This document shows, one piece after another, positions 2,612 through 18,901 of a stretch of DNA of 64,000 nucleotides. The number at the start of each line of letters is the position of its first letter. Position 1 is the first letter of the stretch. The notes below the pieces were generated by a model. The model worked only from the letters and a program-made list of their open reading frames with translations. It did not search any database and was not told the DNA's origin. The translations under genes and the position numbers were made by a program. Origin of the DNA: Falsiroseomonas ponticola (lineage in GTDB: Bacteria > Pseudomonadota > Alphaproteobacteria > Acetobacterales > Acetobacteraceae); assembly GCF_016805305.1 (NCBI RefSeq), contig NZ_JAERQN010000014.1:1-64000 (forward strand), written 5' to 3'.

Positions 2612-3742
2612 ATGCGCGTTGCGGTTTTGCGCGAACGGCGCGCGGCGGAGACACGGGTGGCCGCCACGCCGGAGACGGTGAAGAAACTCATCGGCATGGG
2701 ATGCACCGTGGCGGTGGAGGCCGGCGCCGGCCTCTCCTCCGGCATCCCTGACGCCCAGTATGCCGAGGCGGGCGCCGAGGTCGCGGCCGATCCGGCCGCC
2801 GCCCTGGCCGGCGCGGGGATCGTGCTGGCGGTGCGCGCGCCGGAAGCGGCGGAACAGGCGCTGATCCCGCGCGGCGCCATCCTGATCGGCACGCTGCAGG
2901 CCGACAAGGATGCGGCCAGCGCCTATGCCAGCGCCGGCATCGATGCCTGCGCCATGGAACTGGCGCCGCGCATCACTCGCGCCCAGTCCATGGACGTGCT
3001 GTCCAGCCAGGCGAACCTGGCCGGCTACCGCGCGGTGGTCGAGGCCGCGGGCGCCTTCGACAAGGCCTTCCCGATGCTGATGACGGCGGCCGGCACGATC
3101 AGCGCCGCCAATGTCTTCGTCATGGGCGCCGGCGTCGCGGGGCTGCAGGCCATCGCGACGGCGCGCCGCCTCGGCGGCCGCGTCTCCGCCACCGACGTCC
3201 GCCCCGCGGCGAAGGAGGAGATCAAGTCGCTGGGCGCCAGCTTCGTCGGCTATGAGGATGAGGAGAGCAAGGCGGCCCAGACCGCGGGCGGCTACGCCAA
3301 GCAGCTCTCCGCCAATTTCTACGCCGAGCAGGCCAAGGTCGTCGCCGCCCACATCGCCAAGCAGGACATCGTCATCTGCACGGCGCTGGTGCAGGGCCGC
3401 AAGGCGCCGACCCTGGTGACGGAGGCGATGGTCGCCTCCATGAAGCCGGGCAGCGTGATCGTCGATATCGCCGCCGATGCCGGCGGCAACGTCGCCGTGA
3501 CGAAGCCGGGCGAGGAGACGCTGACCGCGAATGGCGTGAAGGTGCTGGGCTTCACCAACTGGCCCGGCCGCATCCCCGCCGCCGCCTCCGCCCTCTATGC
3601 GCGCAACCTGCTGACCTTCCTGACCACCTTCTGGGACAAGGAAGCGAAGAAGCCCGCCATGCCGGCCGAGGATGACATCGTGAAGGGCGTCACGCTCACC
3701 CGCGGCGGCGCCGTGGTCCACCCCTCGCTGGCCTCGGCCTGA
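2612..3742 (+). CDS. pntAA: Proton-translocating NAD(P) transhydrogenase, alpha subunit part 1 (NAD-binding)
   Basis: This 376-residue protein is the soluble dI component of the membrane transhydrogenase, which transfers hydride from NADH to NADP+ driven by the proton gradient and so supplies NADPH. It has the alanine-dehydrogenase/PNT fold: an N-terminal domain beginning [23 protein letters not shown] and the nucleotide-binding loop [19 protein letters not shown] near residues 170-190. The ATG at 2612 is preferred over an adjacent TTG at 2609; GGGGG lies ten bases upstream. It heads the pntAA-pntAB-pntB operon, with an 11-base gap to the next gene. The split alpha subunit is the usual arrangement in Rhodospirillum-like bacteria. 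Confidence 0.95.
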
Positions 3743-3753
3743 GGAGCGTCTCC

Positions 3754-4149
3754 ATGAACCCCATCGACATCGCCAACCAGGCCAGCGCCCGCGCGCAGGA
3801 AGCGCTCACGCTCGCCGAGCAGGCGCGCCGCCTGGCGGAGGCCGCGGCCCCCGTCGCCGCCGCGGCCGAGCCCTTCCTGCTGCTGCTGACGATCTTCCTG
3901 CTGGCCTGCTTCGTCGGCTACCATGTGGTCTGGAACGTGACGCCGGCGCTGCATTCGCCGCTGATGGGCGTCACCAACGCCATCTCCTCCGTCATCGTGG
4001 TCGGCGCCATCCTGGCGACCGGCCTGTCCGACAGCATCGCCGCCAAGGTCTTCGGCTTCCTCGCCGTGACGCTCGCCGCGGTGAATATCTTCGGCGGCTT
4101 CATGGTCACGCGGCGCATGCTCGCCATGTTCAAGAAGAAGGGGAGCTGA
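3754..4149 (+). CDS. pntAB: NAD(P) transhydrogenase, alpha subunit part 2 (membrane)
   Basis: This 131-residue protein is the membrane (dII) portion of the split alpha subunit. After an alanine-rich N-terminal helix come the segments [20 protein letters not shown], about residues 41-60, and two to three further hydrophobic spans, with the conserved [18 protein letters not shown] motif. It forms part of the proton channel with PntB. It lies between pntAA and pntB with only four bases before pntB, so the three are clearly one operon. The basic tail ending MFKKKGS is expected to face the cytoplasm. Confidence 0.94.
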
Positions 4150-4153
4150 GCCG

Positions 4154-5563
4154 ATGGCCCAGACGCTCTCGACGCTGGCGTATCTCGTCGCCTCCGTCCT
4201 CTTCATCCTGGCGCTGCGCGGCCTCTCGAACCCCGAGACCAGCCGCCAGGGCAACCTCTTCGGCATGGTCGGCATGGCGATCGCCGTGGTCGCCACGCTG
4301 CTGAAGCCCGGCATGGGCGCGGGCGGCATCGTCATCGTCCTCGCGGGCCTCGCCATCGGCGGCACCATCGGCACGGTGCTGGCGCAGCGCATCCAGATGA
4401 CGTCGCTGCCCCAGCTCGTCGCCGCCTTCCACAGCCTGGTCGGCATGGCGGCGGTCTTCGTGGCGGCGGCCGCCTTCTACGCGCCGGAGAGCTTCGGCAT
4501 CGGCACGCCCGGCAACATCAAGGGCGCGTCCCTGGTGGAGATGTCGCTCGGCCTCGCCATCGGCGCCATCACCTTCTCGGGCTCCGTCATCGCCTTCGCG
4601 AAGCTCGATGGCCGCATGTCCGGCTCGCCCATCATCTTCAAGGGCCAGCACCTGCTGAACGCGGCGCTGGGCGCGCTGCTGCTCATCCTCGTCATCGCCT
4701 TCGTCATCACCGGCAGCCCGGTCCTGTTCTGGATCATCGCGATCCTGTCCTTCGCGCTCGGCTTCCTGCTGATCATCCCGATCGGCGGCGCGGACATGCC
4801 GGTCGTCGTCTCCATGCTGAACAGCTATTCCGGCTGGGCGGCGGCGGGCATCGGCTTCACCATCGGCAATCTGCTGCTGATCGTGACCGGCGCGCTGGTC
4901 GGTGCCTCCGGCGCCATCCTGTCCTACATCATGTGCAAGGGCATGAACCGCAGCATCGTCAACGTGCTGCTGGGCGGCTTCGGCGGTGATGGCGGCGCGG
5001 CGGCGGCGGGCGGCGGCGCGGCCGCGGACCGCGCGCCGGTGAAGGCGGGCTCCCCGGAGGATGCCGCCTACATCATGAAGAACGCGCAGAAGATCATCAT
5101 CGTGCCGGGCTACGGCATGGCGGTGGCCCAGGCGCAGCAGGTGGTCCGCGAAATGGCCGACCTGCTGAAGAAGGAAGGCGCCGAGATCTCCTACGCCATC
5201 CACCCCGTCGCGGGCCGCATGCCCGGCCACATGAACGTGCTGCTGGCCGAAGCCAACGTCCCCTATGACGAGGTGCATGAGCTGGAGGAGATCAACGCGG
5301 AATTCGCCGACGCCGACGTCGCCTACGTCATCGGCGCGAATGACGTGACGAACCCCGCCGCGAAGACCGACAAGTCCAGCGCCATCTACGGCATGCCGAT
5401 CCTGGATGTGGAGCGCGCCAAGACCGTGTTCTTCGTCAAGCGCGGCATGGCGTCCGGCTATGCCGGCGTGGAGAACGAGCTGTTCTTCCGCCCCAACACG
5501 ATGATGCTGTTCGGCGACGCCAAGAAGGTCACGCAGCAGATCGTGCAGAGCCTGCAGAAGTAG
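4154..5563 (+). CDS. pntB: NAD(P) transhydrogenase, beta subunit
   Basis: The 469-residue product combines a multi-pass membrane half (residues 1-270), containing the conserved SPIIFKGQHLLNAALG and GADMPVVVSMLNSYSG segments, with a cytoplasmic NADP(H)-binding dIII domain (about residues 290-469). The latter carries VPGYGMAVAQAQ, HPVAGRMPGHMNVLLAEA and VIGANDVTNPAA, all signature dIII motifs. A glycine/alanine-rich linker (GGDGGAAAAGGGAAAD) joins the two. It completes the proton-driven transhydrogenase. The operon ends at a strong hairpin terminator 65 bases downstream. Confidence 0.96.
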   Translation: MAQTLSTLAYLVASVLFILALRGLSNPETSRQGNLFGMVGMAIAVVATLLKPGMGAGGIVIVLAGLAIGGTIGTVLAQRIQMTSLPQLVAAFHSLVGMAAVFVAAAAFYAPESFGIGTPGNIKGASLVEMSLGLAIGAITFSGSVIAFAKLDGRMSGSPIIFKGQHLLNAALGALLLILVIAFVITGSPVLFWIIAILSFALGFLLIIPIGGADMPVVVSMLNSYSGWAAAGIGFTIGNLLLIVTGALVGASGAILSYIMCKGMNRSIVNVLLGGFGGDGGAAAAGGGAAADRAPVKAGSPEDAAYIMKNAQKIIIVPGYGMAVAQAQQVVREMADLLKKEGAEISYAIHPVAGRMPGHMNVLLAEANVPYDEVHELEEINAEFADADVAYVIGANDVTNPAAKTDKSSAIYGMPILDVERAKTVFFVKRGMASGYAGVENELFFRPNTMMLFGDAKKVTQQIVQSLQK

Positions 5564-5627
5564 CGCCGGCCCGTCACGCGGCGGCCGCCGGAAGGCGGCC
5601 TGTGCCTGAGGGCAGGAACAACGGGAA

Positions 5628-5656
5628 GGGGGGTCGCCAGGGCGGCCCCCCTTTTT
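5628..5656. terminator. Bidirectional rho-independent terminator between pntB and the BLUF gene
   Basis: Bases 5628-5637 pair with 5642-5651 (ten pairs including one G-T) around the loop CAGG, and five T residues follow. It sits just after pntB and four bases from the stop of the convergent BLUF gene, so it probably ends transcription of the pnt operon. Confidence 0.85.
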
Positions 5657-5659
5657 CGT

Positions 5660-6115
5660 TCAGGCCGCCGCGGCCAGGGCGCTGAAGGGCGTCGCCGCGA
5701 AGGCCGCGGGGCCGCCCCGCACCACCCCCCGCAGCGCCATCACCAGCGCCATCGCATCATGGCCCCGGCCCATCTCCGGCGGGATCAGGTCCAGGTCCGA
5801 CAGATAGGCCATGGTCCAGGTGGCGAAGCAGCGCGCCGGCGTCGGCGCCTGGTGCAGCAGCCGCACATCGTGGTGCCGCTCATCCTGCCGGATCAGGTCG
5901 AACATCGCCGTCACCATGTCCGGCGGCCCCTCCAGCGTCTGCGCGAAGCGCCCATGGCCGGACACCAGCAGCCCCGAAAGCCGCCAGGTCGCGTTCTTGG
6001 GGCGGGATACGCCGAGGATCTGCTCCACCAGCGCTTCCTCCTCCAGGTGCATGGTCCCGGCCGCGCGGCGGCTGGTGTAGATGACTCGCATCAGCGGAGA
6101 AGGCGTGGCGTGCAT
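5660..6115 (-). CDS. Short BLUF-domain blue-light sensor (first of two)
   Basis: The 151-residue protein is a single BLUF domain with a short helical tail and no output domain. BLUF proteins bind FAD and respond to blue light through hydrogen-bond rearrangement. The flavin-binding positions are visible: Tyr13 in VIYTSR, Asn41 and Gln59 in FAQTLEGP, with the Asn-Gln spacing of 18 seen in AppA; a Trp and Met follow in ATWTMAYL. I start at the ATG at 6115, which has GAGG six bases upstream; an ATG at 6148 would overlap the probable -10 element. Being a lone sensor it must act on a partner protein, which is not evident nearby. Confidence 0.85.
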   Translation of the reverse strand: MHATPSPLMRVIYTSRRAAGTMHLEEEALVEQILGVSRPKNATWRLSGLLVSGHGRFAQTLEGPPDMVTAMFDLIRQDERHHDVRLLHQAPTPARCFATWTMAYLSDLDLIPPEMGRGHDAMALVMALRGVVRGGPAAFAATPFSALAAAA

Positions 6116-11923: not shown

Positions 11924-13345
11924 ATGACGACCTTCGCCGAACTCGGCCTCGCCCCCCGCATCCTCCAGGCGCTGGAGGAGGAGGGCTACACCACCCCCAC
12001 CCCGATCCAGCGTGACAGCATCCCCCACGCCCTGAAGGGCAAGGACATCCTGGGCATCGCCCAGACCGGCACCGGCAAGACCGCCGCCTTCGGCCTGCCG
12101 CTGCTGCACAACCTGGCCGAATCGAAGGGCCGCCCGCCCCGCGGCGGCTGCCGCGCGCTCATCCTCTCGCCGACGCGCGAACTGGCCAGCCAGATCGCCG
12201 ACAGCCTGAAGGCCTATGGGCGCCACATGGGCCTCTCCGTCGCCGTCATCTTCGGCGGCGTGCCCCACGGCCCGCAGCGCCGGGCGCTGGCGCACGGCAT
12301 CGACATCCTCGTCGCCACGCCGGGCCGCCTGCAGGACCACATGGATGAGGGCTCCGCGCGCCTCGACATGGTGAACGCCCTCGTCCTCGATGAGGCCGAC
12401 CAGATGCTGGACAAGGGCTTCTGGCCCGCCATCCGCCGCATCCTGCCGAAGCTGCCCCAGCCCCGGCACACCATGTTCTTCTCCGCCACCATGCCGACGG
12501 AAGTCGCCAAGCTGGCCGGCGAGATCCTGCGCGACCCCATCCGCGTCGAGGTCGCGCCCGTCTCCTCCACCGCCGAGCGCGTGACCCAGAAGCTCGTCGT
12601 CATCGAGCAGGGCCGCAAGCGCGCCAAGCTGGCGGAGCTACTGCGGATGGACGGCGTCGGCCGCGCGCTCGTCTTCTCCCGCACCAAGCACGGCGCCGAC
12701 CGCATCGTGAAGAACCTGGACGCCGACGGCATCGCCGCCAACGCCATCCACGGCAACAAGAGCCAGGGCCAGCGCGAACGCGCCCTCGCCGACTTCAAGT
12801 CCGGCCGCGCCCCCGTTCTCGTCGCCACCGACATCGCCGCCCGCGGCATCGACGTGGACGGCGTGACCCACGTGATCCAGTACGACATGCCGGACACCCC
12901 CGAAGCCTATGTCCACCGCATCGGCCGCACCGCCCGCGCCGGCGCCTCCGGCATCGCGGTGGCCATGTGCGCCCCCGATGAGCGGGAGAAGCTGTGGCAG
13001 GTGGAGAAGCTGATCCGCATGCCCATCCCGGCGACCGATGAACGCCAGGACGTCTCCGTGCCCATGTACCGCACCCAGGGCCGCCCCGACGCCATCAAGC
13101 CCGCCCCCGGCGCCGGCGCCGGCCGCAGCCGCGGCCAGCCCGGCGGCCGAGGCCGCTCCGGCGGTGGTGGCGGCGGTGGCCAGCGCCCGCCCCAGCAGGC
13201 CCGCCCGGCCAAGCCGAGCACGCCCCGCGGCGGCGACGCCCCCGTCCGCCGCCCGACCGCCCCCGCGACGGCCGCGTCCAAGGACCGCGCCTGGCGCGAC
13301 GGCGACTTCCGCGACGCGGCGCCTGCGTTCCTGCGCAAGCGGTGA
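11924..13345 (+). CDS. DEAD-box ATP-dependent RNA helicase (RhlE-like)
   Basis: The 473-residue enzyme unwinds RNA using ATP. The motifs run in order: Q motif GYTTPTPIQ (21-29), Walker A AQTGTGKT (46-53), PTRELA, TPGR, LDEADQML, SAT, then the second RecA domain with ATDIAARGID and HRIGRTARA. Residues from about 385 on form a Gly/Arg/Pro-rich, probably disordered tail (GRSRGQPGGRGRSGGGGGGG) that usually adds unspecific RNA affinity. Such helicases act in ribosome assembly and mRNA decay, often in the cold. It is a single-gene unit with a long leader and is followed by two hairpins at 13350-13405. Confidence 0.93.
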   Translation: MTTFAELGLAPRILQALEEEGYTTPTPIQRDSIPHALKGKDILGIAQTGTGKTAAFGLPLLHNLAESKGRPPRGGCRALILSPTRELASQIADSLKAYGRHMGLSVAVIFGGVPHGPQRRALAHGIDILVATPGRLQDHMDEGSARLDMVNALVLDEADQMLDKGFWPAIRRILPKLPQPRHTMFFSATMPTEVAKLAGEILRDPIRVEVAPVSSTAERVTQKLVVIEQGRKRAKLAELLRMDGVGRALVFSRTKHGADRIVKNLDADGIAANAIHGNKSQGQRERALADFKSGRAPVLVATDIAARGIDVDGVTHVIQYDMPDTPEAYVHRIGRTARAGASGIAVAMCAPDEREKLWQVEKLIRMPIPATDERQDVSVPMYRTQGRPDAIKPAPGAGAGRSRGQPGGRGRSGGGGGGGQRPPQQARPAKPSTPRGGDAPVRRPTAPATAASKDRAWRDGDFRDAAPAFLRKR

Positions 13346-13349
13346 GACC

Positions 13350-13405
13350 TTGGGGAAGGCGCCGCCTTCCCCAAACCCCATCCGCCAGGGGCGAGACGCC
13401 CCTGG
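13350..13405. repeat. Paired-hairpin palindromic element (copy A), probable helicase terminator
   Basis: A perfect 12-bp stem (13350-13361 with 13363-13374) is followed after ten bases by a 9-bp stem, CCAGGGGCG/CGCCCCTGG (13385-13405). The same two-hairpin plan, with a similar second stem, recurs at 16036-16083. It starts five bases after the helicase stop and may stop transcription, but the repetition suggests a dispersed repeat family. Confidence 0.6.
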
Positions 13406-13467
13406 ACGGTCGGCAGTTTGGCGCCCGGACGGGGAACGCGAACCGCCTCGAAACCCCGCGCTACCGA

Positions 13468-13680
13468 GAACCCTCCCCCGCGCTTGCGGGGGGTTCGGCG
13501 CACGTCGCCGAACGCAGAAGGCTGGCAGGGTGCCTGCGCCGCCAACGCGCCCAAGAACCCTCCCCCGCGCTTGCGGGGGGTTCGGCGCATGTCGCCGAAC
13601 GCCGAAGGCTGGGGGGGTGTCTGTGCCACCGAGGCGCGCAAGAACCCTCCCCCGTCCTTGCGGGGGAGGGCAGGGTGGGG
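13468..13680. repeat. 87-bp tandem repeat with internal palindrome, two full and one partial copy
   Basis: The sequence starting GAACCCTCCCCC occurs at 13468, 13555 and 13642, a constant 87-base period. Copies 1 and 2 are nearly identical for about 57 bases and then differ; copy 3 stops after the palindrome CCCTCCCCCGTCCTTGCGGG and a GGAGGGCAGGGTGGGG tail. Each copy contains an inverted C-run/G-run hairpin. No gene is seen in 13346-13717. This looks like a REP-type extragenic palindrome amplified in tandem. Confidence 0.75.
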
Positions 13681-13717
13681 GTACGGCCCGCCTCACCGCA
13701 CCCAGCTGAGGCCCCCC

Positions 13718-13900
13718 ATGCGCGAAACCGTCCTGATGAAAGGCGAAACCGCCACCCTCGTCATCGTCACAGCCAACGGCCAGACCGAAGTCCTGGACGG
13801 CGAGGATGAAGTGATCGAAAGCCACAAGGACGATCGCCACGAGGCGATCCTGGCGCGGTACCTCGCGCAGGGCTGGGCGATCGAGGAAGACGGGCCGTAG
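13718..13900 (+). CDS. Small protein of unknown function (60 residues)
   Basis: The frame starts MRETVLMKGETATLVIVTANG and ends GWAIEEDGP; it is acidic toward the C-terminus (DGEDEVIESHKDDRHEAI). GAGG lies seven bases before the ATG. The pattern of alternating beta-type residues followed by a helix suggests a folded small domain, but I recognise no family. It lies between the tandem repeats and the low-GC island, and its base use is like the chromosome rather than the island. An in-frame ATG at 13736 is an alternative start. Confidence 0.55.
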   Translation: MRETVLMKGETATLVIVTANGQTEVLDGEDEVIESHKDDRHEAILARYLAQGWAIEEDGP

Positions 13901-14039
13901 TCAAACTAAACGGGACTTTGGAACCGATCTGCGCCGTTGCGGATGAGGCACGACGCTAAAGCGAGCGAATTTTTCGCTCGTCGCCTGTTTTAATATTTGC
14001 GGAAGGCGGAACCGCGCAATCTTAATCGATTATTATAAA

Positions 14040-15473
14040 TCATTTTTGGTGGGCTATATGTTTTTCGCCCTTCCAATGAATCGTCAATCCGCTTAAGTGT
14101 CGTATGGAATCAATTTCTGTAACTCTCGATCCATCCAGGTAGAGATTCTGAAGGTTCGGAAGGTCGCGCAGCACTTCGACGCTCGCTACGTTGGTGCCCT
14201 CAATGGCCAAAGTTTTGAGGCGTCGCATGCCTCTCAATGCGTCAAGATTTGATATTTTTGTACCATTCAGGCCTAATGTTTCTAGATTTTCAAGTCTTGC
14301 GAGCATTGTGATATCGGAAATCGTCGTTCCGTTTAGGTGCAGGCGGTTCATCTGGATAAGGTTTTGAAGTGGTCGCAGATCTTCAACCGCCGTGCCGCTG
14401 AGGTCGAGCCTTCGTAGGCGATGCAGCTTCGACAACGCATCGATATGGACGACCCCAGTCCGACTTAAGCCAATATTTTCAAGATTTGAGCATTGGCCTA
14501 CCATGGTTAAATCAGAAAATTCCAGTTTACCTGTAAAGGTGAGGCTGACAACAAGTGGCTGCCAGTGCTTCGGAAGCTGGTTGCCCGCCAAAAGTATGGA
14601 GTGAGCTTCATCGAGATCAAATGGCCTGCTTGTAGCGTGCACCCGCTCCGTCATGTGGCGCATTCTTCTGCGTACGAGCCAAACAGCCGTCTTTACACCG
14701 TTAGTTGCCCAGTCTGCAGCCTTAACTACAGCGTGGCTAAAGTATCGAACCGTGGGCGTTAGCCAGTCCGTTAGTGCCTCAACCGTTGCCTTCACATCGT
14801 TCGCGATGTCGCGAATCGCCTCCGTCGCGCGCGCGAGGGCGGCGATGTCGCTTTCGGGCGGGATGGCCGCATCGTGCCCCGTGCGCGTCTCCAGTCGTGC
14901 TGCACCGACCTGCACAGTCAGCGAAGCTAATTGCAGATTGAGAAGACCACGCTGATCCACGGCCATGTTTGTCTGCGGCTTTGCCGGTTCCGCGGTGGCT
15001 TTGGCCAATCCTCGCACATTGTCCTCGACGTTGCGCAGCCTTTCATCCAGGCGGTCCAGAATGGATTCGAACGCCGCGCGCGGTATCTGCAGTTCGCCGA
15101 ACTCGGACATGCGGGGTTCGAGGCCAAGGGCTTTCGCCGCATCCACGCCGTTCTCCAGCGCTTCCACCAGGTTGCCGCGTTCGCCGCGCAGCGCCGTCAG
15201 GGCGGGTGTTGGCGCCTCGAGTTCCGGGTCCAGTTCCGGCAGTTGAAGGCGGCGCAGGTCCTGCCTCGCCTTCGACAGATCCCCGCCGAGTTCCCTGGTC
15301 GCGCCCAGCGCCTCATTCGCGATGATCAGGTCGATCCGATCGAGTAACTCCTTGAAGTAGCGCTGATGCGCCGGGTCGTTGCTCAGCGCCAGGGCGGCGC
15401 GGAAGCGCTTCGATGCCCGCCCGATTTCGCCCAGGCGGTCGCGCATCGCCTGGATTCGCTCTGGCCGCGTCAT
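14040..15473 (-). CDS. Leucine-rich-repeat protein paired with a TIR protein (candidate split immune receptor)
   Basis: The 477-residue protein has three parts. Residues 1-165 are helical and charged, probably coiled coil. Residues 175-275 hold amphipathic helices (LTVQVGAARLE, VKATVEALTDWLTPTVRYF, VKTAVWLVRRRM). Residues 309-465 are leucine-rich repeats of about 22 residues, with units such as LRRLDLSGTAVEDLRPLQNL, LHLNGTTISDITMLARLENL and LGLNGTKISNLDALRGMRRL. LRRs usually bind proteins. Its ATG overlaps the TIR stop by four bases, so both are made from one message. The LRR half of the gene is far richer in A+T (about 35-45% GC in sampled lines) than the N-terminal half (about 60-75%). Function is inferred, not known. 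Confidence 0.85.
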   Translation of the reverse strand: MTRPERIQAMRDRLGEIGRASKRFRAALALSNDPAHQRYFKELLDRIDLIIANEALGATRELGGDLSKARQDLRRLQLPELDPELEAPTPALTALRGERGNLVEALENGVDAAKALGLEPRMSEFGELQIPRAAFESILDRLDERLRNVEDNVRGLAKATAEPAKPQTNMAVDQRGLLNLQLASLTVQVGAARLETRTGHDAAIPPESDIAALARATEAIRDIANDVKATVEALTDWLTPTVRYFSHAVVKAADWATNGVKTAVWLVRRRMRHMTERVHATSRPFDLDEAHSILLAGNQLPKHWQPLVVSLTFTGKLEFSDLTMVGQCSNLENIGLSRTGVVHIDALSKLHRLRRLDLSGTAVEDLRPLQNLIQMNRLHLNGTTISDITMLARLENLETLGLNGTKISNLDALRGMRRLKTLAIEGTNVASVEVLRDLPNLQNLYLDGSRVTEIDSIRHLSGLTIHWKGEKHIAHQK

Positions 15474-15979
15474 GGCGTTGGCCTTGCGGTGGCCGCGAAG
15501 GGCGAACGGGGCTTGATGCCGAACCAGTCCTGGATGCCATCGGAGATTGCCTTCGCCGCCTCCGCGAATCCATTCTCGGGCTTTGGCCAGTCGGCAACGG
15601 GCTTGAGGCGACCGTCATGGGTGGTCGGCACCACCTGGATGTAGCTGCCGAAGAAGCCCATCCAGCCGCAACGGCGATAGATCACCGGCATGACAAGCGC
15701 CCCGCTGCCGCGGTGTCTCGCCTGAATGGCGGGCCATTCCTTTGTCAGGATGTAGTCGGAGGCAAAGAAGTCGGCCGTCGCCAGTAGGACGAAGACCTGA
15801 GACCGCTCGATTTCTGCTTCGATCCGGTGGTTCCAATAGTCCCCCGCTTGGATGCGCCGGTCATGCCACACCCGAAGATTGAGCAGATGCGTGTAGCCCG
15901 TGAGGTGCACGCGCAACCGTTCAAAGGCGGCGTGGTCCGCATGCGAATACGAGAGGAAGCATTGTTCCGGCCCCGACAT
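15470..15979 (-). CDS. TIR-domain protein, first gene of the TIR-LRR module
   Basis: The 169-residue protein is essentially one TIR domain: CFLSYSHAD (strand A, residues 7-15), the BB-loop region VWHDRRIQAGDYW (37-49), WNHRIEAEIERSQVFVLLAT, and FFASDYILTKEWPAI, with Glu81 in the place of the catalytic glutamate of NAD-cleaving TIRs. Bacterial TIR proteins commonly hydrolyse NAD+ or make cyclic nucleotide signals during anti-phage defence. No sensor domain is present here; the overlapping LRR gene probably supplies it. The start at MSGPEQ is the first sensible Met; its ribosome site (GGTCGGGGC) is weak. GC is close to that of the surrounding chromosome. Confidence 0.88.
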   Translation of the reverse strand: MSGPEQCFLSYSHADHAAFERLRVHLTGYTHLLNLRVWHDRRIQAGDYWNHRIEAEIERSQVFVLLATADFFASDYILTKEWPAIQARHRGSGALVMPVIYRRCGWMGFFGSYIQVVPTTHDGRLKPVADWPKPENGFAEAAKAISDGIQDWFGIKPRSPFAATARPTP

Positions 15980-16035
15980 GCCCCGACCATGCCAGCCACG
16001 CGCCCGCTCAACAACCGCCCCATTGATGGCGGGGC

Positions 16036-16083
16036 CCGGGGGCCGCCACGGCCCCCGGCGGGGTCCAGGGGCAGCGCCCCTGG
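16036..16083. repeat. Paired-hairpin palindromic element (copy B)
   Basis: A 10-bp stem (CCGGGGGCCG with CGGCCCCCGG, 16036-16058) is followed by CCAGGGGC/GCCCCTGG (16065-16083). The second stem is nearly the same as in the element at 13385-13405. It lies between the TIR gene start and the next gene, and the two copies bracket the accessory island. Confidence 0.6.
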
Positions 16084-16194
16084 CCTGCTCTCCCCTGTGT
16101 CATCCCACCCTAGCCCGTTGACGCCCCGCCCCCCCGCTGCCACGTCTTTCGCAACGCTACGCGGGCAAAGACCCGCGCCAACGGGAGTTCGTCC

Positions 16195-17163
16195 ATGCCC
16201 CCTCGCATCACGCGTCGCGCCCTCGCGCTCGCGGCGCTGATCACGCCGGCCATCGCCCGCGCCCAGGACTACCCTTCGCGCCCTGTCCGCATCGTCGCCC
16301 CCGTCGCGCCGGGCGGGTCCACGGACCTCATCGGGCGTGTCCTGGCGGAGGAACTGAACCGCCGCTCACTGGGGCAATTCTTCGTGGAGAATCGCCCCGG
16401 TGCCGGTTCCAACCTGGCCTATGCCCATGTCGCGACGCAGCCGGCGGATGGCCACACGCTGCTGATCGGGCTGGACAGCCTCACGGTGAACCCGACGCTC
16501 TACAACCGGGTGGAGTACGACCCCGTCGCCTCCTTCGCGCCGGTCACCTTGATGGCGCGCATCCCGCATATCCTGGTCACGCATCTCCGCAGCCCCATCA
16601 ATGACTTCGCGGAGTTCATGCGCATCGCGACGGCGGAGCCGGACCGGCTGAATGTCGCGGTCTCCGGCATCGGCTCCGGCGGGCATCTGAGCGGCGCCGT
16701 CATCCAGCACCAGACGCGCGCGCGCTGGACCATCGTGCCGTATCGCGGCGGTGCGACGCCGATCAACGACCTCATCGCCGGCAATGTCGATGCCGCCTTC
16801 GTCACGCTGGGTGCGGTCATCGGCCATGTTCGCGGCGGGCGGCTGCGTGCGCTCGCCATCACCACGCCGAACCGTTTTCCGCTGTTGCCGGATGTGCCGA
16901 CGGTCGCGGAGGTTGCGCTGCCTGGCTACGATGTCCCGAACTGGTACGGCATGCTGGCGCCGGCCGGTACGCCCGCGCCCATCGTCGCCAGGCTCAACAC
17001 GATCATCAACGATGCGCTCACGGAGCCTCGCGTCCGCGCCACGCTGCTCGACAATGGGTTCGAGATCGTGGGCGGCCCGCCGGAGGTCCTGGGCACCCTG
17101 ATCCGGGAGAGTGTCCCCCGCTGGGCCACCCTGGTGCGCGCCGCCAACATGCGCGCGGAATGA
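16195..17163 (+). CDS. Bug/TctC-type periplasmic substrate-binding protein
   Basis: The 322-residue protein has a Tat-like or Sec signal (TRRALALAALITPAIARAQ) and the hallmarks of the Bug (TctC) family: YPSRPVRIVAPVAPGGSTDL at the mature N-terminus, FFVENRPGAGSNLAYAHVA, YRGGATPINDLIAGNVD and PLLPDVPTVAEVALPGYDV. These proteins bind carboxylates such as citrate, nicotinate or aromatic acids for tripartite transporters, but many Bug genes are orphans, as here where no TctA/TctB membrane genes are seen. Its stop overlaps a possible start of the hydrolase gene, so the ligand may be related to that enzyme's substrate. Confidence 0.9.
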   Translation: MPPRITRRALALAALITPAIARAQDYPSRPVRIVAPVAPGGSTDLIGRVLAEELNRRSLGQFFVENRPGAGSNLAYAHVATQPADGHTLLIGLDSLTVNPTLYNRVEYDPVASFAPVTLMARIPHILVTHLRSPINDFAEFMRIATAEPDRLNVAVSGIGSGGHLSGAVIQHQTRARWTIVPYRGGATPINDLIAGNVDAAFVTLGAVIGHVRGGRLRALAITTPNRFPLLPDVPTVAEVALPGYDVPNWYGMLAPAGTPAPIVARLNTIINDALTEPRVRATLLDNGFEIVGGPPEVLGTLIRESVPRWATLVRAANMRAE

Positions 17164-18815: not shown

Positions 18816-18901
18816 GCGGTCGTGGCGGAATGGTAGACGCGCCAGCTTGAGGTGCTGGTGGGGGCAACCCCGTGGAAGTTCGAATCTTCTCGACCGCACC
18901 A
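18816..18901 (+). tRNA. tRNA-Leu (anticodon GAG), CCA encoded
   Basis: The acceptor stem GCGGTCG (18816-18822) pairs with CGACCGC (18891-18897), followed by A and encoded CCA. The anticodon stem CCAGC/GCTGG encloses the loop TTGAGGT, giving anticodon GAG for CUC leucine codons. A long variable arm (GGGGGCAACCCC) and the TTCGAAT T-loop confirm a class II leucine tRNA of 86 bases. Confidence 0.95.

Follow-up and report, generated by a model that had tools for sequence, protein, structure and literature searches.

The locus and its neighbourhood

The 64 kb stretch of DNA analysed here (the window) contains, on its reverse strand, a short gene for a TIR protein and a longer gene for a partner protein (Table 1). 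Both genes were found where the preliminary description had placed them, with a Glu residue (E81) in the catalytic position of the short TIR protein and a four-base overlap that reads ATGA. The partner consists of a helical N-terminal part, named HelA in this study, followed by an LRR module; the HelA family profile extends to about residue 275. No other gene in the genome of the window matches TIR_2. The assembly is rated at a completeness of 99.3% and a contamination of 6.83%; that the pair itself does not stem from contamination is shown by the orthologous locus of Falsiroseomonas stagni.

Table 1. Coordinates of the features at the locus (positions in the window)
Feature	Position	Strand	Remarks
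Three GC-rich repeats with palindromic arms	13467..13670	.	Part of the flank
Small conserved ORF, 60 aa	13718..13900	+	Nine genus relatives have it at 68-98% identity
Variable slot holding the pair	13901..16016	.	Other genes here in sister genomes
Partner gene, 477 aa	14040..15473	-	HelA helical domain and LRR module
Exchanged part of partner gene	14040..14753	-	End of the HelA helix, N-cap and six LRRs
Constant part of partner gene	14754..15473	-	Codes for HelA residues 1 to about 240, which are conserved in F. stagni
ATGA stop/start overlap of the TIR and partner genes	15470..15473	-	4 bases; kept at 14 of 16 loci
TIR gene, 169 aa	15470..15979	-	Predicted effector; Glu81 in catalytic position

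Within the genus, this locus is a variable slot. Its left edge is the stop codon of the small ORF (13900), where similarity ends at 13899-13901 in all six nucleotide-aligned relatives. The right edge lies at 16017 in the comparison with genome G580; elsewhere, homology restarts only at lipB, at about 18105, just past which there is a tRNA-Leu gene. Fifteen genomes of the genus were compared, including that of the window, and ten of them are readable from the left slot edge. As to the others, the contig ends by the helicase gene in G195, G582, and G587, the neighbourhood differs in G095, and G583 has no close helicase match. An LRR gene occupies the slot in six of the ten readable genomes. The window and F. 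stagni carry TIR with HelA-LRR, G580 and G586 carry HelB-LRR (HelB being the linker of single-gene TIR-LRR/FGE proteins), and G581 and G585 carry a two-gene pair with a pentapeptide-LRR protein. No LRR gene is present in the slot of G590, G584, G152, or G588. In G152, the interval before lipB encodes an MmeI-like type IIG restriction enzyme (PADLOC E value 4e-293); this gene, in one sister genome, is the sole known defence gene seen in the analysis.

It had been proposed that the pair stands alone between palindromic elements, as would a mobile cassette. Such repeats do exist, on the left as listed in Table 1 and on the right as a palindrome at 16038-16056, a pattern that is not rare by chance (16 of 100 shuffles gave as many matches). 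They belong to the flanks, however, because flanking DNA that contains parts of them adjoins a very different gene in one of the sister genomes. For this reason, the idea of a cassette bounded by palindromes was rejected.

A PADLOC search of the ten larger ORFs of the window left eight without a match at 1e-3. The DEAD-box helicase matched 51 profiles, the best 25 of which are mostly of helicase type (top match BrxH; E value 1e-31), and we take these matches as generic helicase likeness. A hydrolase gave one weak match (E value 9e-5). These ten ORFs thus include no recognised defence gene next to the pair, and the housekeeping-like character of the neighbourhood is a point against the alarm function proposed below.

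The TIR protein

The TIR protein matches the Pfam family TIR_2 (E value 6.4e-14) over the curated cut-off. Its best PADLOC match is the ThsB profile PDLC00420 (E value 5.5e-30; residues 7-158), and the match to the Pfam ThsB_TIR family (PF08937) is below the cut-off (E value 0.26). Membership in the FxsC family was rejected, as the sole NCBIfam match (FxsC TIR-like NF040588; E value 1.6e-7) has a score of 31, far below the cut-off of 130. The TIR profile also matches solved TIR structures, including those of Cat1, which we take to be a NADase, and of AbTIR, which is named as a NAD+ hydrolase in the list of structure matches.

The residue E81 is invariant in all eight aligned TIRs. Glu is kept in 15 of 15 TIRs linked to HelA by alignment, and reading of the sixteenth sequence also gave Glu, so that the conservation of Glu81 among relatives, to which the preliminary description had attached weight, extends to all 16. 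With respect to F. stagni, the dN/dS of the TIR gene is about 0.09, which indicates purifying selection. The gene is present in two of the 15 Falsiroseomonas genomes. As called, three of the 16 TIR frames (L057, L167, and L168) are short at the N-terminus, a further point against the alarm function, and the TIR match at L057 contains two stops; some copies may be broken.

HelA and its linkage to TIR

The N-terminal half of the partner (first ~280 residues) has no Pfam match. In Pfam, no family over cut-off was found for the six HelA members scanned, and the scans made of Pfam, NCBIfam, and PADLOC give HelA no name. The AlphaFold model of this half (two sequences in the alignment) is helical, as had been described from the sequence, at the low confidence of a pLDDT mostly under 50, which also counts against our reading. 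Against solved structures, HelA matched chiefly coiled-coil stretches in the nucleo- and phosphoproteins of viruses (best E value 1e-5). We take these matches as coiled-coil resemblance and reject a kinship with such proteins; two scans of viral contigs revealed no relative. Homology between HelA and HelB was likewise rejected, and the two are treated as separate families because profile comparison gave a probability of 0.3% (E value 0.22).

Leave-one-out HelA profiles recovered five of five held-out members (E values 3e-9 to 1e-36), while all other of the 778 ORFs scored 0.3 or worse. Among 397 genomes of the family, the profile detected 14 loci in 11 genomes. In a class sample of 357 genomes HelA was found in the window's own genome only (0 of 356 others), and the first profile, built from three rows, gave in the class search the own genome and a weak partial match (E value 4e-4). 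In a phylum sample of 388 genomes, HelA was found in the own genome and, as the one other clear match, in G1105 (E value 2.7e-67); a weak partial match in G959 (E value 7e-4) was left out of the locus count. The 16 HelA loci discussed here are thus the 14 from family genomes, the F. stagni locus, and the G1105 locus. The TIR and HelA module is rare, which is another point against the alarm function.

Each of the 16 HelA genes is immediately preceded by a TIR gene in the same orientation; the two genes are indeed conserved as neighbours, which the preliminary description had named as a check. The ATGA overlap is retained at 14 of these loci, and the genes are 15 and 6 bases apart at L172 and L173, respectively. 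Pairwise distances of TIR and HelA are correlated (r 0.83 for 15 loci; 0.68 without F. stagni; 0 of 10,000 permutations). For HelA residues 1-239, the dN/dS with respect to F. stagni is about 0.12, which again indicates purifying selection. Examination of the ORF lists by eye revealed no third gene common to the HelA loci.

The LRR module and its replacement between sister species

The partner matches the Pfam families LRR_4 (E value 2.5e-16) and LRR_8, both over cut-off. The hydrophobic periodicity of the LRR region peaks at 22 residues (0.60), a value reached in none of 10,000 shuffles. At least five units of 22 residues had been counted previously; the period stands and the count rises to six, since the repeat pattern places units at residues 331, 353, 397, 419, and 441 and visual inspection adds one at 375. 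An N-cap occupies about residues 285-314, and the six LRRs run from 331 to about 465. AlphaFold predicts a solenoid of strands and short helices over about residues 288-469 (pLDDT mostly 65-87; two sequences in the alignment).

The closest named genome found is that of F. stagni DSM 19981, in which both genes are in the same place within flanks that match at 86-95% identity, and in which the ATGA overlap is also present. Identity is 89% for the TIR proteins and 92% over partner residues 1-239. Calculated per 20-codon block, nucleotide identity is 77-98% up to residue 240 and 43% or less thereafter. Nucleotide matches end at window position 14746 and restart at 13899, beyond the stop codon of the partner gene, and homologous DNA borders the replaced segment on both sides. 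The LRR end has been replaced between the sister species, with TIR and HelA constant. In GC content, the LRR segment of the window (0.49) differs from HelA (0.65), TIR (0.62), the window as a whole (0.72), and the LRR segment of F. stagni (0.68). Because of this low GC relative to its surroundings, it was apparently in the lineage of the window that the LRR was replaced by foreign DNA.

C-terminal modules of the HelA family

The C-terminus varies among the 16 HelA loci. Five loci carry an LRR module (the window, F. stagni, L055, L167, and L169), seven an FGE-sulfatase/C-type-lectin module (PF03781; L057, L062, L166, L170, L172, L173, and L174), two a TPR module (L171 and L168), and one a PhyR-like end (L178, in genome G1105); one (L054) is unassigned. 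L169 is cut by a contig end and its LRR assignment rests on the cap and the first repeat, and L168 is also cut, with a Pfam TPR match below cut-off (E value 0.0016). The earlier view of the pair as a split receptor-like combination of TIR and LRR therefore needs amendment: it describes the window, but LRRs are present at only five of the 16 loci, and the conserved unit is TIR with HelA. The PhyR-like end of L178 comprises a sigma mimic and a receiver (PF22233, E value 2e-11; PF22029, E value 7e-7; PF00072, E value 4e-10). PhyR is a general stress regulator, and a C-terminus of this kind could likewise serve in stress regulation, which weighs against the alarm function.

Of the 12 inner branches in a tree built from the HelA domains of 15 loci, with L178 omitted, three are well supported, so that the number of exchanges read from it is rough. 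One group (support 99/99) unites two LRR loci with a TPR and an FGE locus, and another (98/99) unites one FGE with one LRR locus. The well-supported branches force three label changes for LRR and three for FGE. On the best tree the module labels change six times, compared with a mean of 7.0 after shuffling. The labels are not clustered beyond chance (55 of 200 shuffles were as low), which fits frequent exchange of modules and also a poorly resolved tree.

A profile of the five HelA-LRR caps, run on the 2377 ORFs of the fetched loci, identified further LRR genes (E values 3e-12 to 5e-4). The capped LRR is joined to HelB linkers in L128, L058, and L052, and to pentapeptide front parts in the second gene of L054 and in L065, L127, L066, and L125; Pfam detects the pentapeptides of L127, and those of the other four were assigned by reading. 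One HelB-LRR protein (L124) was missed by the cap profile, though Pfam detects its LRR. By eye, the front ends of L124, L125, and L127 are HTH-like, and Pfam shows no HTH. As judged from these profile matches, the capped LRR is found on quite different proteins.

Diversification of FGE modules by retroelements

At four of the 25 loci tested, the 3' end of the FGE region is covered by the template and variable repeats that mark a diversity-generating retroelement (DGR), two with HelA-FGE (L173 and L174) and two with TIR-HelB-FGE (L053 and L061). The repeats are 117-126 bases long, one copy being the 3' end of the FGE region and the second differing from it almost exclusively at its own A positions. 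Mismatches fall at template A in 12 of 14 cases at L053, 15 of 16 at L061, 14 of 15 at L173, and 11 of 15 at L174, an A-specific bias with P values of 7e-7 to 6e-12. Both HelB loci are broken in frame, L053 between TIR and HelB and L061 inside FGE. Genes for bAvd (PF22296; E value 3e-19) and a reverse transcriptase (PF00078; E value 3e-17) come after the HelA-FGE gene of L173. Reverse transcriptase and Avd matches occur at L173 and L061, and L172 has an Avd match of 44 residues.

The other five HelA-FGE loci, one of which (L170) lies near a contig end, showed no DGR repeats. Neither did the LRR loci among the 25 tested, and the F. stagni locus was also negative. The 64 kb of the window contain no reverse transcriptase or Avd match, and no repeat pair of DGR type was listed for positions 13300-16300 in a search within 200 bases. 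The diversification of the FGE end by DGRs is the strongest reason for regarding the C-terminal module as a ligand sensor. Together with the replacement of the LRR between sister species, it strengthens the case for a sensor role of the LRR.

Relatives outside the HelA loci

A search with the TIR protein in 200 family genomes gave 19 matches, and reading of the loci assigned a HelA partner to five of them and none to the other 14, which is a point against our reading. Six of the 19 are genes for TIR-linker-sensor proteins (L051, L052, L053, L058, L059, and L061); L053, L058, and L061 carry frame changes, and the linker family of L051 is unassigned. The remaining eight are of other kinds, two of them (G014 and G116) not read closely. 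A search with the whole partner in 200 family genomes gave 22 matches, most over the LRR only; that in G098 covers most of the length and that in G156 covers HelA only.

On plasmids, TIR relatives occur on 39 records, and the eight inspected are longer TIR proteins of about 312-365 aa. None of these eight has an annotated LRR neighbour in the gene table, which is incomplete. LRR matches were obtained on 23 plasmids, none of which covers 80% of the partner, the best listed covering 41%.

Comparison with known systems

The pair shares with Thoeris a multi-gene organisation and a TIR of the same broad subfamily as ThsB. It differs in that ThsA was not among the matches listed for ten ORFs of the window, the direct neighbours included, and in having as partner a HelA protein with a sensor module. 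Plant TIR-NLRs and the bacterial STAND/NACHT receptors likewise combine a TIR effector with an exchangeable LRR sensor, but here two genes are involved and the middle is a helical domain without a named family. The likeness to plant TIR-LRR receptors that was originally suggested accordingly holds for TIR and LRR carried by two genes and fails for the central NTPase; a Pfam search at E values up to 1 found only TIR-type and LRR families in the two proteins, and no NB-ARC or NACHT NTPase.

The literature consulted, for the most part as excerpts, includes PMC7159879, PMC8195603, PMC10907252, and PMC7517822. In the portions available of Kaur et al. 2020 and 2021 (PMC7159879, PMC8195603), paired bDLD3 proteins are described, one being STAND-FGS and one TIR. 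These conflict systems resemble the present loci in constant and fast-changing modules, TIR effectors, FGS (FGE) domains, and two-protein pairing. They employ vWA/MoxR or STAND NTPases and death-like adaptors, as far as those portions go, none of which matched in the pair, and the same portions contain no TIR with HelA and LRR. On reading the ORF lists of the window and the HelA loci, no MoxR ATPase or vWA protein was recognised. The excerpted text of PMC10907252 concerns putative antigen sensors diversified by DGRs, the targets being STAND, VMAP, or CHAT-TIR proteins. It shares with our loci a hypermutated FGE/C-type-lectin end beside TIR-type effectors; here, in contrast, the organisation is a two-gene TIR/HelA-FGE or a TIR-HelB-FGE, and the LRR version of the window has no DGR. 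The combination of a constant module, exchangeable or diversified sensors, and TIR effectors is, on the same excerpts, already in print (PMC7159879, PMC8195603, PMC10907252). No description of a free TIR and LRR pair or of a HelA family was found in the literature searched, the coverage of which is partial, so that absence is not proven. We file the pair as a variant of TIR conflict systems that lacks the NTPase of NLR-like receptors.

Proposed function and alternatives

Based on sequence comparisons, the pair is probably an intracellular alarm made up of a TIR effector, a HelA holder, and an exchangeable sensor, with phage as the likely trigger. The TIR protein would be the effector and, once assembled, would cleave NAD+, leading either to its depletion or to a nucleotide signal. 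HelA would be the constant holder, binding TIR and keeping it in, or bringing it into, the active assembly, and translational coupling would provide TIR and HelA in matched amounts. Sensing would fall to the C-terminal module. In the window, the capped LRR would bind a protein of an invader, most likely a phage; FGE/C-type-lectin domains, TPRs, or a PhyR copy would take this part in relatives. On binding of the ligand, a signal would pass via HelA to TIR, the TIRs would assemble and cleave NAD+, and the infected cell would stop growth or die before phage release. Specificity would change through sensor exchange between species and, in some FGE versions, also through DGRs.

A physical complex, NADase activity, a ligand, and a phage trigger are what we infer. 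That HelA binds TIR in fixed proportion is suggested by the gene overlap, the correlated evolution of the two proteins, and the existence of a single-chain TIR-linker-LRR protein (L052). Assembly and NAD+ cleavage are suggested by the conserved Glu and by the profile kinship to Cat1 and AbTIR. Phage as the trigger is suggested by the diversification of the sensors and by the restriction enzyme in the interval of one sister genome.

The same loci could be read differently. The pair might sense internal stress or damage, with the module reading states of the host and TIR activity slowing growth, and both the PhyR-like sigma mimic with receiver at the end of one HelA partner and the housekeeping-like genes around the window locus would agree with this. 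Stress sensors, however, seldom need replacement between sister species or hypermutation driven by a retroelement, as are seen in the LRR and FGE modules, and the PhyR copy could just as well lure an invader protein directed against PhyR; we regard a stress function as unlikely. Alternatively, since the top PADLOC match of the TIR is the ThsB profile PDLC00420, it might act as in Thoeris and signal, by way of cyclic ADP-ribose, to a distinct effector that is encoded elsewhere in the genome and either depletes NAD or acts at the membrane. We consider this quite unlikely, given that ThsA is absent among the matches listed for ten window ORFs and that, by eye, no shared third gene was recognised in the ORF lists of the HelA loci. 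A STALD search of the genome found no match, and the same search was also matchless in its 14 control genomes.

The gene overlap and strict pairing recall toxin-antitoxin pairs, and the partner could be the antitoxin of a toxic TIR, with modules that serve localisation or inter-bacterial contests and not the sensing of a ligand. The same bacterial family, however, has single-chain TIR-linker-LRR and TIR-linker-FGE proteins (L052 and L059), which have another linker, and DGRs diversify some FGE ends, as expected for a sensor; an antitoxin role is, in our judgement, highly improbable. That the TIR is a scaffold without enzyme activity would accord with the fact that this activity is a prediction, but with Glu in the catalytic position in 16 of 16 cases we give this proposal very little credence.

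Beyond the alarm function itself, which remains our preferred reading, the loci may represent a class of immune receptors free of NTPases, in which a fixed TIR/HelA engine accepts a plug-in LRR, a hypermutating FGE, TPRs, or a PhyR decoy. We put this forward tentatively and hold it to be possible rather than probable.

Implications

To our knowledge, how bacterial TIRs learn of phage is known for few systems. One of these is the subject of PMC12578639. The locus of the window and F. stagni amounts to a natural domain swap: two sister species have kept effector and holder in one place and differ there in the sensor. Because the sensor is swapped at an orthologous locus, the question of what it senses can be tested directly with two natural alleles. 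LRR recognition, TIR output and, in relatives, diversification by retroelements would here be linked without an NTPase. The HelA profile provides a means of finding such systems, since HelA goes unnamed in the databases searched. If the proposed receptor class is real, bacteria would possess a receptor with a sensor open to exchange or rewriting and, in addition, a built-in decoy resembling the target of an invader, as is known from plant NLRs.

Occupants and surroundings of the variable slot

In sister genomes, the slot that holds the TIR/HelA-LRR pair in the window (HelA being the helical domain of the partner protein) carries other genes; in one of them a MmeI-like restriction-modification enzyme lies in the same interval. 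The first gene of the two-gene pair at L127 and L125 was judged by eye to be HTH-like; it had no Pfam match, and none better than an E value of 0.006 was obtained with PADLOC. The 817-aa frame at L124 gave no TIR match. A lipB-like gene, recognized by reading, is located about 3.6 kb from a TIR/HelA-FGE pair in another genus (L057), so that such a gene is found near a TIR/HelA pair both there and in the genus of the window. The genome of the window also holds a second LRR gene, a 592-aa open frame (L138).

Coordinates of features at the slot and at related loci
Feature	Locus	Position
tRNA-Leu (GAG), beyond lipB and close to the slot	window	18816-18901
Unnamed protein and pentapeptide-LRR, 4-base overlap, in slot	L127	2175-4399
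Same pair, in slot	L125	155-1956
817-aa open frame, HelB linker and LRR, in slot	L124	2403-4856
MmeI-like type IIG enzyme, same interval	L133	1309-4239
lipB-like gene	L057	79-750
Second LRR gene, match	L138 (G000:C28)	202864-203337
DGR repeats over FGE end, TIR-linked gene	L173	2955-4845
Same	L061	2165-4074
Same	L174	6664-7199
Same	L053	8528-8967
HelA partner with PhyR-like end, after a TIR gene	L178 (G1105)	3673-5789
TIR and ATPase-like fusion	L063	5353-7110
HTH, reverse transcriptase and TIR genes	L148	2777-4954
NB-ARC and TIR genes	L151	859-4453

Other TIR arrangements

A single protein at L063 fuses a TIR to a part read as ATPase-like. On a Celeribacter plasmid (L148), an HTH, a reverse transcriptase and a TIR gene are consecutive and, going by their annotation, retron-like. 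On an Acaryochloris plasmid (L151), the TIR gene is immediately preceded by an annotated NB-ARC gene, a different kind of split from that of the window's TIR/HelA-LRR pair.

Alternative C-terminal modules

Where the FGE module replaces the LRR, diversity-generating retroelement (DGR) repeats cover its end at several loci; matches to reverse transcriptase and Avd are present at L173 and L061, and an Avd match of 44 residues at L172. At L178, the HelA partner terminates in a PhyR-like sigma mimic and a receiver domain, and this end is possibly an integrated decoy of a host stress regulator.
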